From a virus, in the IMG/VR virus record IMGVR_UViG_3300006305_000015, positions 1 through 30,390 of that record: a DNA stretch of 30,390 nt. One strand, written 5' to 3'. A model generated the notes under the pieces. The model made no database searches. It had not been told where the DNA came from and saw only the letters and a list, made by a program, of their open reading frames with translations. Below are positions 16,016 through 30,075 of this stretch, in pieces; the first letter of the stretch is position 1, and every line of letters begins with the position of its first letter. The position numbers and the translations under genes were made by a program.

Positions 16016-16690
16016 TTAATCCTCATTGTACAAATTATCAAAAATTCTATTTACGTCTAATGTATAGTCTAAATCAGATTTAGAATAATGTACATACTGT
16101 GATGGTTTAAAATCTGGAGCACCTACTCCTGTTTCAAACCATGCTGGATGTGTAACACGAACTCGATTGTTTGGCAATGCTACAAGATTACCTGTCCATT
16201 CTCCTGCATCTAACAAATACATTACATGACTTTGTTTATGTTGTGCTGGATCATCAGCTATCTCACTTTCAGAATAATCAACTGTAAACAGGTATTTAGC
16301 AGGATAAAAAGCACCACCAATTTTAGCCATCCAGGGACAAGGTGTAGCTCTATCTAAAGTGTAAACAGCGTGTGTGTAAGAAGAACAATCCCAAGGTTGC
16401 GCGTCATGCACAGCCATAGAATCTGGCCATTCATCAACTACAATATCTGCCATGAGAGCTGTTATGGGCATTCTCGCCCACATAGCACCGCCATGTACGT
16501 TGGGATTTTTGGTATCATCTGTTTCACAACCAGTAAATATAAGTTGAAAACTAAGGCATCTATTTGGTATGGTCGTGACTGCAATAGCCATGGCGTGTAA
16601 AAACTCGCCATGGTAGTTTGTATGATTACAGGTGTATTCCCTTCTTACCCAACATTTAAAATGTGGAATATTGCTTTGTAAGTAGGGCAT
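16016..16690 (-). CDS. Unknown cysteine- and tryptophan-rich structural protein
   Basis: A 224-aa protein of unknown family, with unusual Cys/Trp/His content for this locus: HFKCWVRREYTCNHTNYHGE, NRCLSFQLIF, TGCE, QPWDCSSYTHAVY and ATPCPWMAKIGGAFYPAKYLFTV. The region around GGAMWARMPITALMAD may be a core strand set. I recall a related short conserved protein next to head-completion genes in cyanophages and pelagiphages. It follows the basic 108-aa gene by a TAATG overlap and ends one base before the gp4-like start. A head or tail accessory role is inferred from position only. Confidence 0.6.
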   Translation of the reverse strand: MPYLQSNIPHFKCWVRREYTCNHTNYHGEFLHAMAIAVTTIPNRCLSFQLIFTGCETDDTKNPNVHGGAMWARMPITALMADIVVDEWPDSMAVHDAQPWDCSSYTHAVYTLDRATPCPWMAKIGGAFYPAKYLFTVDYSESEIADDPAQHKQSHVMYLLDAGEWTGNLVALPNNRVRVTHPAWFETGVGAPDFKPSQYVHYSKSDLDYTLDVNRIFDNLYNED

Positions 16691-17026: not shown

Positions 17027-17239
17027 TTATTTAAACCAACTTACAGTTAAATTAGCAAGAACTCCAATAGCTCCTGCTACACCCATCATAACCCAAAAAG
17101 CCCCTCTCCAGCGGCTGGCTGTTTCTCTTAATTGAATTATATCTGAGCGCATTTCTTTCATGTCTTCTTGAAGGGCCTCAACACGTTCTTCCAAACGTGC
17201 CAAAGCAACTTCAAGTTTATGTTCTGTTTTTTGAGCCAT
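17027..17239 (-). CDS. Coiled-coil membrane protein, haemolysin XhlA-like
   Basis: A 70-aa protein: an amphipathic coiled coil (EHKLEVALARLEERVEALQE, continuing to about residue 43) followed by one membrane span (about 47-66, AFWVMMGVAGAIGVLANL). This layout matches XhlA-like or holin-partner proteins, and other small coiled-coil membrane proteins share it. A TTG six bases upstream (17245) overlaps the preceding stop and could also be the start; I prefer the ATG at 17239, in a TGAGGATG junction. Could take part in lysis. No catalytic residues visible. Confidence 0.65.
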   Translation of the reverse strand: MAQKTEHKLEVALARLEERVEALQEDMKEMRSDIIQLRETASRWRGAFWVMMGVAGAIGVLANLTVSWFK

Positions 17240-19973: not shown

Positions 19974-20462
19974 TCATTTTTTTGGACCACCAAAGGTTAC
20001 TCTTGATTGACGATCAGGTTTACTAATCGTCATGGTTGAATGAGAATTTTCTCGCATCATATCAGAATCCACCGCATCCATTTGATCTTGAGTTTTCTCA
20101 CGAAAATACTCATTTCTCTCCTGAACAGTCTCTTCCGGTATTCTTGCAAGGACTAGACCACCTTGTCCAAAAACACCTGTATATTTGCCTGATTCAATAA
20201 CTGGAGCTTCAAACTCCGGATATTCATCTTTACGAACTAATTCATAACCTTCACGCAGTCTAGAAGAAATATTCTTCGTATCGTCAAAGCCACGAACTTC
20301 CGCTCGTATCCATCTATGCCGATAACCATCTGGCGCAGGCGGTGCTTCTAGTATTGACGGCGGTGCCCAAGGCTTACGCCGCGTTTGCTTGTTTCTAGTC
20401 TTATTAGCGCGAGGAGTTCGATCTACGCCGTTCACATCTATTTCTGTAATTGTTTCTGACAT
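19974..20462 (-). CDS. Conserved head-module protein
   Basis: A 162-aa basic protein. N-terminal disordered basic segment (RANKTRNKQTRRKPWAPPSI), then a compact domain with YRHRWIRAEVRGFDDTKN, RLREGYELVRKDEYPE, IESGKYTGVFGQGGLVLARI and a helical C-terminus (NEYFREKTQDQMDAVDS). The YRHRWIR...GYELVR...GGLVLARIP core is one I associate with conserved unknown proteins beside scaffold and capsid genes in marine phages. Its position argues for a head-assembly role; no motif defines it further. Confidence 0.66.
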   Translation of the reverse strand: MSETITEIDVNGVDRTPRANKTRNKQTRRKPWAPPSILEAPPAPDGYRHRWIRAEVRGFDDTKNISSRLREGYELVRKDEYPEFEAPVIESGKYTGVFGQGGLVLARIPEETVQERNEYFREKTQDQMDAVDSDMMRENSHSTMTISKPDRQSRVTFGGPKK

Positions 20463-27068: not shown

Positions 27069-27626
27069 TTATCTCTCCGGTAACATATTTGTAAAATTTT
27101 CTGCAAAAAATTTAGCTTGATCTTCAGAATCAAACTCTAAATATTCCCCTTCTCTAAAAGCCCTGTTGCTTGCGGCTTGAGGTCTTAGCTGGGTCAATAC
27201 CCGACCCATGGGTGTTTCTAAAGGAAATATACTAGGAAAAGCATAATTATCTTCTTGAAACATACGAACAGTTGCCGGACCTTGTTCCGTGTCTAATACA
27301 GGACTATTTTTATTAAAGGCTCTTTTTACAAAATCAGGAACATAACCTAACTTGTTTATTGAATTTAACAAAATTTTTTCTATGTCAAATTGATCTGTGC
27401 CTAAAGAAGCCACTCCACCTTGCACGGGACCGCCTTCTTGAAATTTCATAATGTACTGGTCACCTTTAAGACCATAGCGTTCATGCCAGTCTCTTTCATA
27501 CATTAAAGCTTGTCTTTCTACATCAGCAAGGTTTTCAAATCCGCCAACCAAAAACTTCTTTCTATGTAGACCAACAGCAAAAGGCTCACCATTAATCCAC
27601 TGGATTAATTTCATAAAATCATCCAT
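27069..27626 (-). CDS. Unknown protein between terminase and portal
   Basis: A 185-aa protein. The N-terminus has FMKLIQWINGEPFAVGLHRK, VGGFENLADVERQALMYERD; the middle has SLGTDQFDIEKILLNSINKL; the C-terminal region has LTQLRPQAASNRAFREGEYL and QAKFFAENFTNMLPER. I do not recognise the family. The start overlaps the terminase stop by eight bases, so it is co-translated with packaging genes; a packaging or injected protein is possible. No catalytic motif is apparent. Confidence 0.55.
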   Translation of the reverse strand: MDDFMKLIQWINGEPFAVGLHRKKFLVGGFENLADVERQALMYERDWHERYGLKGDQYIMKFQEGGPVQGGVASLGTDQFDIEKILLNSINKLGYVPDFVKRAFNKNSPVLDTEQGPATVRMFQEDNYAFPSIFPLETPMGRVLTQLRPQAASNRAFREGEYLEFDSEDQAKFFAENFTNMLPER

Positions 27627-29076
27627 AATAAGCCCTTATCCTTGTTTCTTTCAATTCTTCATCTCCCCAATCATCCGATGGCAGGTTTACAAAGTTGCCT
27701 TGTCTATATCTCATCAAGGCCTGTGTCATACTATCCACAAGGTCATCATACTCTCCATTTGGAAAAGCTGCAACCTCTTCTATCATCTCGTCTGCAAACG
27801 TCTCTTCGGGGGCCCATACCATACCGGCTTCAAACAAAGGTGATACCGAATGTACACGCGATACCTTATCATTACCTTTAGAAGGCGTAAAGTTTACGAC
27901 AGGGATACCCGTGTTCCGTAGTTCGTGTGTCAAAGGCAGCCCACTTGCTTTTGCTTCCACGATTACAGTGTCGGGGTCCCAATACTCATATTCTTCTAAC
28001 GCAATACCTTTGAGTTCCGGAAAGTCCCAACGTCCCTTTTTACTGTCCAATAGTATTAATCCTGGTGGTCCACCTTCTTCTGGTGAGAATACACCCCAAG
28101 TTGTAATGGCAGAATAGTCTGATGTTTCGCGTTTCGTGAATGCCGTATCGTAACTCTGTATTACATATTTTAAATCAGGTACGTTTTTCTTTTTCCATCG
28201 TTTCCACCAGCTGCGTGGAATGATAGCGTTGTCCTCACCTGTAGGGTTTTGCTGATACTGTGCATTCCATTTGGACGGTGGTATTGACGCTTTTACAGAT
28301 TCAAGATCTGGTAAAGACCAATACTCTGGCCAGCAGGCAGAACCGCTGGGCATAATGGCTGGTAGCTCTATGACTTCCCATTGATCAGCTAGGGGATCCT
28401 TAGCCATAGATTTAATCAACTGTCCTGTCATATCTTTCTGTGACCATCTTGTCTGTACAAGAACAATAGCACCACCGGGCTGTAGTCTCTGTCGGGGGCC
28501 CCCAGTATACCACTCCCATGCATCTTCAAAACCAGAATTAGACATGGCTGTCTGTTCCGAGTGTGGATCATCAATAACAATAAGATCGCCACCACGACCC
28601 GCTAGGTTTGATCCAACGCCCACGGCGTAATACATACCGCCTGCTTTTGTATCCCAACGCCCTGATGCTTTACTGTCAGCAGATAAATTAGCGTCAGGAA
28701 ATATTTCTTTGTAGTCGTCACGTTCCAAAAGGTTTTTAACCTTACGGCCAAAACTTACTGCAAGTTCTGTCGTATGTGTTGCTTGTATAATTTTCATCGT
28801 AGGCTTACGGCCTATCATCCACGCTGGAAAGAGATAGCTGGCAAACTCAGATTTCGTGTGTCGCGGAGGCATATTGACAATAAGTCTTTTTAATTCACCC
28901 GTTGCTATGCCCTCAAGCTTGTCTGCTATGATCTTATGATGCGCTCCTGCAATAAATTCAGGCCACATTTGTTTTACGAAATACAAAAAATTATTTTTTG
29001 AATAATCAATCTTTTTTAACTGCTCTAGTCTTAATTCAAGCTTTAATCGTTTTGCGGTTACTTCTTGTGCTTCCAT
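27619..29076 (-). CDS. terL: Large terminase subunit (packaging motor)
   Basis: A 485-aa protein with all terminase signatures. ATPase: Walker A MPPRHTKS (69-76), Walker B LIVIDD (165-170) followed by PHSEQ. Nuclease (RNase H-like): SYDTAF with Asp310 as motif I, VIVEAKASG with Glu374 as motif II and GEYDDLVDSM with Asp445 and Asp448 as motif III. The protein pumps DNA into the prohead and cuts the concatemer. It opens the late region, after a GC-rich intergenic island, with a good ribosome site (GGAG, five bases before ATG). The small subunit is not identified in the window. Confidence 0.92.
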   Translation of the reverse strand: MEAQEVTAKRLKLELRLEQLKKIDYSKNNFLYFVKQMWPEFIAGAHHKIIADKLEGIATGELKRLIVNMPPRHTKSEFASYLFPAWMIGRKPTMKIIQATHTTELAVSFGRKVKNLLERDDYKEIFPDANLSADSKASGRWDTKAGGMYYAVGVGSNLAGRGGDLIVIDDPHSEQTAMSNSGFEDAWEWYTGGPRQRLQPGGAIVLVQTRWSQKDMTGQLIKSMAKDPLADQWEVIELPAIMPSGSACWPEYWSLPDLESVKASIPPSKWNAQYQQNPTGEDNAIIPRSWWKRWKKKNVPDLKYVIQSYDTAFTKRETSDYSAITTWGVFSPEEGGPPGLILLDSKKGRWDFPELKGIALEEYEYWDPDTVIVEAKASGLPLTHELRNTGIPVVNFTPSKGNDKVSRVHSVSPLFEAGMVWAPEETFADEMIEEVAAFPNGEYDDLVDSMTQALMRYRQGNFVNLPSDDWGDEELKETRIRAYYG

Positions 29077-29188
29077 TGTAGCTCCGGGGGACCCTTAGGG
29101 TACCTGTGGGTTTTATCTTATATTAACGCACTTTGTAGAAAAATACTATGTATTATTTGTGGAAAACATGCACCTTGACCCTGTTACA

Positions 29189-29501
29189 GGTCCGTCGGGA
29201 CGGTCGAATCTGGTCCGAATCTCTATAACCCGCGGAATCCTTACAAAAATCAGTAACCAGTAACCAAAAACCACGCGCCGTGCGATTGAGTCCAGTTTTG
29301 AATCTTCCCGGAAGATCTTCCGGGAAGCGTGCGGATCTTCCGGGCGGATCTGGTGCCGGTCCACGGTCCATAAACCACGCGAATCGGATCTCGTACAATT
29401 GGACCACGGGCGCGGGTCCGGCGTCCGCTTGTTTAACCCGTAAATATATAATTTGCGTTTTACTGGTCCTGAACGTGCGAAGCTGGGAACGTATCCGGTC
29501 C
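29189..29501. repeat. Iteron-like repeats and GGWCC cluster
   Basis: Eight GGWCC words lie within 313 bases (29189, 29212, 29358, 29365, 29401, 29415, 29465, 29497), with a ninth at 29089. Four are GGTCCG in the same orientation (29189, 29212, 29415, 29497). CGGATCT occurs three times in the same orientation (29332, 29345, 29385), and AAACCACGCG twice (29268, 29372), 104 bases apart. AGTAACC is also tandem near 29252-29265. Multiple same-strand repeats next to a palindrome resemble origins or regulator-binding arrays. Confidence 0.6.
29304..29327. repeat. 24-bp perfect palindrome
   Basis: A perfectly self-complementary 24-mer with half-site CTTCCCGGAAGA. A further GATCTTCCGGG copy starts at 29334, just after it, so the right half is repeated. 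A dimeric or multimeric protein could bind it, or it could form a cruciform. It has no T run, so it is not an intrinsic terminator. Confidence 0.8.
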
Positions 29502-29589
29502 GGTCAGGGTATTTTATAGGGTAAGTTGTCGCGCTGTGCAGCTGCAGCTTTTTTATGTAAGTGATTTGCTGAGGGTTCGCGCGTGCATT

Positions 29590-29620
29590 AAAAAACCCGC
29601 CAAAACTTCGGGCGGGTTTA
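29590..29620 (-). terminator. Intrinsic terminator isolating the late region
   Basis: A perfect 9-bp hairpin: stem 29593-29601 with 29611-29619, loop of nine bases, followed on the minus strand by a T run. It lies about 40 bases past the stop of the 137-aa gene and just upstream of the non-coding island. It would stop transcription from upstream genes entering the late region. Confidence 0.85.
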
Positions 29621-29661
29621 ATTTAACAATATAGAAAAAATTTTTAATTGTCTATGTTTTT

Positions 29662-30075
29662 TTACTTAAGCGCGTTTTCTCCCGCTTCTGTCAGGGGCGC
29701 CCGGTTGCTGTCGGGGTGTAATTCTGTGAAGGTCTGGTCAAGTTCTTCCATCAGGCGCATAGTTAAAATTTTTAAATGCTCCCCGTATGCGCGCCCGGTC
29801 AATAAATCTAAGTGTTTAAAATAGTTTACGATTGCGCTTTGTGCGTATCCATAAGACGCCCCCGCTTCATGTGCTATAAATGAAGTAAAGCTTTCAATCG
29901 TGAAGCTTCTTAATCTTTTAAGCGTGGTGGCGTGTCTTATACGGTCCATGTTTTTTATATATGAATCATACCCGCCATAATCCCCAGTAATCCAACCGCG
30001 GTAAGATCTGCGGGTAATGTCGTTGTCATCTTCTATTATATTTTCTAATAGATTATTTATTTTACTTTTAATCAT
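29662..30075 (-). CDS. 137-aa protein of unknown function
   Basis: A helical protein: SKINNLLENIIEDDNDITRR, then GWITGDYGGYDSYIKNMDRI, TTLKRLRSFTIESFTSFIAH and YAQSAIVNYFKHLDLLTGRA. It is flanked by intrinsic terminators on both sides, so it is a single-gene transcript and separate from the late genes. The terminase neighbourhood would suit a small terminase, but I see no helix-turn-helix signature and a terminator separates them, so I do not call it that. An AGGAG ribosome site precedes the ATG at a long spacing of about 12 bases. Confidence 0.62.
   Translation of the reverse strand: MIKSKINNLLENIIEDDNDITRRSYRGWITGDYGGYDSYIKNMDRIRHATTLKRLRSFTIESFTSFIAHEAGASYGYAQSAIVNYFKHLDLLTGRAYGEHLKILTMRLMEELDQTFTELHPDSNRAPLTEAGENALK

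Follow-up and report, generated by a model that had tools for sequence, protein, structure and literature searches.

What does a largely AT-rich phage genome hold in a long, GC-rich non-coding stretch directly upstream of its terminase gene? The DNA analysed here (the window) is a 30,390-base virus fragment, and an earlier note, made from its letters alone, had singled out one such stretch as a possible replication origin, pac/cos packaging site, late-promoter control region or structured RNA. Because the 485-aa terL lies on the minus strand, at 27619-29076, the stretch at issue is the 5' upstream region of this gene. It is the largest non-coding stretch of the window, as had been claimed: the gap at 29077-29661 spans 585 bp, and the next largest in the ORF list is about 190 bp. 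Its main landmarks, in the direction of transcription, are as follows.

29662-30075, minus strand: 137-aa gene 5' of the terminator, without a known family
29590-29618, minus strand: Rho-independent terminator hairpin (AACCCGCCCGAAGTTTTGGCGGGTTTTTT), recognised in the sequence, which ends the 137-aa gene and forms the upstream border of the promoter module
29180-29590, minus strand: GC-rich, hypervariable non-coding island between the terminator and a promoter-like element, 52.6% GC
27619-29076, minus strand: terL, terminase large subunit (485 aa; PHROG 38, E 5.6e-106; Pfam Terminase_6C)

The window phage is an HTVC023P-type marine phage, a relative of the pelagiphages HTVC027P and HTVC023P. 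Its TerL is 64% identical to that of 023Pt_psg01, 62% to HTVC027P, 59% to DSL-LC04 and 55% to HTVC023P, the nearest named phages. We found no DNA-level match among named phages and no prophage relative with this TerL in 84,980 bacterial and archaeal species, and based the comparison of the region on 320 IMG/VR loci. The remark that no small terminase is visible holds for the window but not as a feature of the genome. In six assembled relatives of the window lineage a TerS homologue sits 4.5-6.8 kb upstream of terL, and in a seventh (G009) it falls past the contig edge; in HTVC027P, HTVC023P and DSL-LC04 the distance is about 4.7-5.5 kb. The window stops 1.3 kb upstream of terL, so that the missing terS is an effect of the window edge.

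The upstream region is bipartite, since the 100 bp adjoining terL have an AT-normal composition (38.5% GC), unlike 29180-29590, where GC reaches 52.6% vs 38.4% window-wide. The GC-richness noted earlier is therefore real for this part: the four 400-bp segments with the highest GC in the 30 kb all fall here, the richest at 52.5%. A GC peak 100-500 bp upstream of terL recurs in most relatives, in AT-rich and GC-rich genomes alike (38-62% GC), with few exceptions (L021, L058, L069, L080). The letters of the island are hypervariable, with 54-65% identity in loci whose terL is 80-96% identical. Three features could be placed within it.

29365-29439, minus strand: conserved block A (GGGTTAAACAAGCGGACGCCGGACC..GTAC..CGATTCGCGTGGTTTATGGACC), from alignment A1
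29304-29327, unstranded: 24-bp perfect palindrome, incidental, broken in L004-L006
29229-29265, minus strand: conserved block B (GGTTACTGGTTACTGATTTTTGTAAGGATTCCGCGGG), from alignment A1

The palindrome, same-strand repeats and GGWCC sites, which had drawn attention in the earlier note, proved to be the least conserved part of the region. The 24-bp palindrome exists as described but results incidentally from a tandem TTCCCGGAAGATC repeat, and we rejected it as a functional site on finding it broken in three loci whose islands are 92-94% identical to that of the window. The GGWCC cluster is likewise genuine (8 sites vs a shuffle mean of 0.97, with 0 of 500 shuffles reaching 8); as a conserved signal it was set aside, the islands of relatives being enriched in other words (CAGCTGG, GATCC, CCAGC). 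A conserved ORF across the island, which the note had set against its regulatory proposal, was looked for, and a small protein was rejected: the ORFs are interrupted in L010 and L015, and no domain was found. The structured-RNA option fared no better, with fold z-scores of -1.08 and -1.44, a weak covariation term (-1.64) and no Rfam match. The conserved parts of the region are instead an AT-rich promoter-like element, the two island blocks and a GGGNCCC box at the terL start. Forms related to block A (GTTAAACAAG..AAACNTAC) extend to more distant loci.

Two of the elements that lie between the island and terL are listed here.

29111-29170, minus strand: AT-rich promoter-like element, consisting of box1 (CATGTTTTCCACAAATAAT) and then ..GCGTTAATATAAGATAAAA, single copy in the window
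29098-29108, minus strand: CACAGGTACCC element in the terL leader, duplicated in L007-L010

The order from terminator through GC-rich spacer and AT-rich element to terL is repeated across relatives, and a hairpin with a T-run stands at the equivalent place in many of them. Comparison with related phages, as had been proposed, thus separated what is kept (the order, the promoter-like element and the blocks) from what is not (the palindrome and the GGWCC array). The AT-rich element is nearly invariant in close relatives, and a scan of IMG/VR with the box1 consensus found at least 117 places; among the matches listed, 97 of 117 lie upstream of a same-strand TerL start. The region has the layout of an operon head, being intergenic, following a terminator and standing ahead of a co-directional operon, in an arrangement repeated in relatives. 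One sub-lineage carries a TTGATA/TTGAAA-16-TATAAT promoter, an 11/12 match to sigma-70, fixed at -71. Sigma-70 matches of at least 9/12 occur in 16 of 35 representatives (shuffle mean 8.5, maximum 14). In the window the best match near terL is only 8/12, and it is the homologous position of the AT-rich element from which we infer a promoter there. The HTVC027P RNA-seq paper gives no transcription start sites in the text consulted (PMC12753301), and the open-access papers searched do not describe these elements. That the module (module A) would drive the terminase/late operon is well supported by comparison, and the late-promoter option of the earlier note gains backing in this form. The GC-rich island is, on the same comparison, the upstream half of this conserved promoter module.

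Downstream of the promoter-like element lies the second conserved part, a palindromic box with counterparts in other named phages.

29084-29096, minus strand: terL-attached palindromic box AAGGGTCCCCCGG (GGGNCCC core 29088-29094), candidate packaging-initiation signal
HTVC027P, position 20361: GGGNCCC box GGGGTCCC
HTVC023P, about position 17195: GGGNCCC box GGGGACCC

When every gapped 3+3 word was compared over 210 bp spanning the terL start, GGGNCCC ranked top, occurring in 12 of 12 genomes vs 0.35 expected. Of the eligible loci in three lineages, 66/66, 72/72 and 70/74 have it close to where terL starts; these lineages, with TerL proteins 55-64% identical (36-45% divergent), still share ancestry, and loci within one lineage are not independent. 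Nine control palindromes of similar make-up did not reproduce its pattern across lineages. The distance from the box to terL is lineage-specific, at about -20, -110 and -27, and ranges overall from about -1 to -168. HTVC023P and 023Pt_psg01, with genomes of 60 kb, each contain a sole copy of GGGGNCCC or its complement, just upstream of terL in both, and five of the six GGGNCCC sites of the window fall within 27809-29094, in or adjoining terL. The motif has limits: it is absent in the more distant TerL relatives CRP-901, Pam1, CRP-810 and ctsTn925, lies only at -1856 in Synechococcus phage MinM2, and turned up in just 7 of the 47 loci that the DSL-LC04 scan covered. It is also missing in L422, and among the matches listed 8 of 97 loci hold no GGGNCCC between box1 and terL. 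The operon heads of HTVC027P and HTVC023P, which belong to the same genome group, resemble that of the window in having GGGNCCC upstream of terL and terL followed by structural genes, but they lack the GC-rich island and box1; no description of their promoters was found in the literature searched.

Several smaller observations concern the surroundings of the box. The HTVC027P and HTVC023P lineages (L144-L223, L304-L383) have a second conserved box, TAGAGGTACCA or TAGTGGTCCCA, some 150 bp ahead of terL, and in the window CAGGTACCC adjoins the GGGNCCC. GC-richer relatives (L046, L054, L059, L061, L063, L074) have a GGGNCCC about 210-230 bp upstream of terL. The upstream GGGNCCC is followed by TATCGGGTCA within 12 bp in 28 of 70 loci and travels with the promoter module, so the motif is not confined to terL. 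Runs of A and T, possibly bent DNA, lie between GGGNCCC and the terL start in HTVC027P (L083, 19830-19890) and DSL-LC04 (L085, 5860-5914).

Loci with a changed gene order offer the strongest evidence that the region would combine two separate functions. In L387, L415, L496 and L486 a terS cassette sits between the AT-rich element and terL; in the first three, terS is followed by a second reading frame that by eye resembles a VRR-NUC nuclease. All four place the terminator, the GC-rich island, the upstream GGGNCCC and box1 ahead of terS, and all four retain another GGGNCCC at the terL start. Two further loci, L051 and L080, have coding sequence reaching as far as terL and no recognised promoter module beside it; GGGGCCCC is kept in both. 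Together these cases assign the island to the promoter and the box to terL. Box1 and the island track the operon head across the gene-order change (L387, L415, L486, L496), as is expected of a promoter region, and the box depends on neither the promoter nor the neighbouring gene order, as is expected of a pac site.

The same loci bear on a somewhat unlikely alternative, that everything here is transcription control and the GGGNCCC sites are operators of a phage late-gene regulator, looping in the manner of lac O1-O3. Operators could account for the GGGNCCC sites that many relatives carry about 97 bp ahead of box1, in the leader and within terL, and for GGGGACCC standing just before a TATAGT hexamer in the HTVC023P lineage. 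However, once terS is inserted, the leader beside the promoter holds no GGGNCCC while terL keeps its box; L051 and L080 hold the box without a recognised promoter module; and the position of the box relative to the promoter varies among lineages.

GGGNCCC also recurs within the coding sequence of terL.

28492-28503, minus strand: GGGGGCCCCCGA, GGGNCCC copy in terL (~nt 574), in 71/79 loci
27974-27980, unstranded: GGGNCCC copy in terL (~nt 1096), in 45/79 loci
27808-27816, minus strand: TGGGCCCCC in terL (~nt 1261), in 59/79 loci

The copy at nt 574 is written with GGG and CCC codons in 29 of 33 representatives, vs 17% and 20% of terL Gly and Pro codons. As these letters are kept at synonymous positions despite low background usage, the copy is under selection on DNA or RNA letters and not on protein. 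In the HTVC027P lineage, terL nt 1264-1296 shows strong synonymous conservation around TGG GCG CCC (39/40 representatives), a spot that is homologous to TGG GCC CCC in the window and ranks among the most constrained synonymous sites of that lineage. The corresponding scan of the HTVC023P lineage was uninformative, its representatives being too similar.

These copies are also relevant to a translational explanation, in which the AGGGG of the box is the Shine-Dalgarno sequence of terL and the CCC half tunes it. We regard it as decidedly improbable. In GC-richer sub-lineages the box does precede the terL ATG by 4-8 nt, and no second ribosome site can be seen there. Its spacing from the ATG is, however, 69-168 nt in HTVC027P, 023Pt_psg01 and DSL-LC04; the window also contains a GGAG distinct from the box, and the intragenic copies are conserved too. 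A ribosome-binding site is a poor fit because the distance from box to start codon differs by lineage across the range given above.

The explanation that we favor as a whole, tentatively and at close to an even chance, joins a promoter module to a terL-attached GGGNCCC that would serve as a headful (pac-type) packaging signal. In this scheme the terminator would close the upstream operon, and the single-copy AT-rich element, following a GC-rich hypervariable spacer with conserved blocks, would initiate terminase/late transcription. The terminase (TerS/TerL) would recognise GGGNCCC at the terL start, with the intragenic copies as a backup in the window lineage, and recognition of these sites would start headful packaging of the concatemer. 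Comparison among loci shows the two parts to be conserved, ordered, near-unique and separable. GGGNCCC is a near-unique signal by the terminase genes, conserved among phages with that terminase, as a pac site should be. The pac reading follows from its near-uniqueness, its position at or in the terminase gene, its freedom from promoter and neighbours, and its variable distance from the start codon; GGGNCCC probably marks a candidate packaging start, which the terminase would read in a headful mode. The earlier pac/cos suggestion thus finds its best expression in the neighbouring GGGNCCC and not in the GC-rich island itself, and a cos site with fixed ends is disfavoured. As a mark of terL in three lineages, GGGNCCC provides a testable candidate for the packaging start and an easy sequence tag for these genomes.

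Contig ends speak to the mode of packaging. In the HTVC027P and HTVC023P lineages, contigs read through GGGNCCC, and their ends share no base and do not pile up at one position; such crossing of the box with scattered ends indirectly disfavours fixed cos ends and fits permuted genomes and headful packaging. We found no terminal direct repeats in 11 contigs or records, the named records being cut at gene starts, and 023Pt_psg01 and DSL-LC04 were deposited as circular. Among contigs of the window lineage, many stop at 0-600 bp upstream of terL, frequently on the box1 border, and we read these ends as assembly breaks at the hypervariable segment. A cos site with fixed cohesive ends is highly improbable. 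It would suit a palindromic, GC-rich sequence adjoining the terminase and the frequency of contig ends upstream of terL, yet those ends are spread out, stopping at the border of the hypervariable island, the ends in the two pelagiphage lineages have no base in common while most contigs cross the box, and circular records exist.

The closest known counterparts are the pac sites of P22 and SPP1. The P22 pac is a 22-bp asymmetric sequence within terS (PMC9611059). As in P22 and SPP1, the candidate described here is a short signal beside or inside the terminase genes, partly in coding sequence, in phages with circular assemblies, and as in SPP1, where several contact points flank the cut (PMC9611059), there are several sites. 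Unlike P22, the window phage group has a 7-bp palindrome at or in terL as its candidate signal, with terS usually 4.5-6.8 kb away. The cos sites of lambda, HK97 and PaP3 share a GC-rich, symmetric core near the terminase, but contig ends here point to no fixed terminus at GGGNCCC. A further parallel is the A-tract read by HK97 TerS (PMC11331095); A-tract-like runs separate box and terL in the lineages of HTVC027P and DSL-LC04.

A replication origin was another option raised for this region, with an AT-rich unwinding element beside GC-rich, repeat-bearing DNA and, in relatives, parS. The juxtaposition of AT-rich and GC-rich DNA, the multiple short conserved blocks, a DnaA-box-like TTTTCCACA in box1 and the parS copies in half of the loci would be compatible with it. 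On the other side, relatives do not retain the DnaA-like word (TTTCTCACA, TTTTTGACA, TTTTCTCAA), L051 and L080 keep GGGNCCC in the absence of the AT-rich element, and across 11 relatives the skew check suggested in the earlier note gave no consistent change of GC-skew sign at the site. Nothing points to an origin, which we consider quite unlikely.

The parS copies are an observation in their own right. A perfect 16-bp bacterial parS, TGTTTCACGTGAAACA, occurs in 35 of 70 window-lineage loci between the GC island/box1 and terL, 20-250 bp upstream of terL in L017, L036, L045, L057, L061 and others. The word matches that of chromosomal parS (ParABS); unlike that system, the window has no parS, no ParB_N gene was found in 17 relatives, and parS is present in one copy per genome where it occurs (exactly one in each of seven longer contigs searched). 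ParB bound to parS can repress nearby promoters (PMC5521831), and host ParB may act on the phage terL locus. A bolder and unlikely reading is that HTVC023P-type phages use a new kind of packaging signal, a dispersed GGGNCCC set over terL and its leader that is fixed at synonymous codon positions, and that many of them add a single host-type parS by which host ParB, and perhaps SMC, would be recruited to where late transcription and packaging begin. The copies raise the question of phage use of host chromosome-segregation proteins, and the HTVC027P record carries a parS with one mismatch at 16412-16427.
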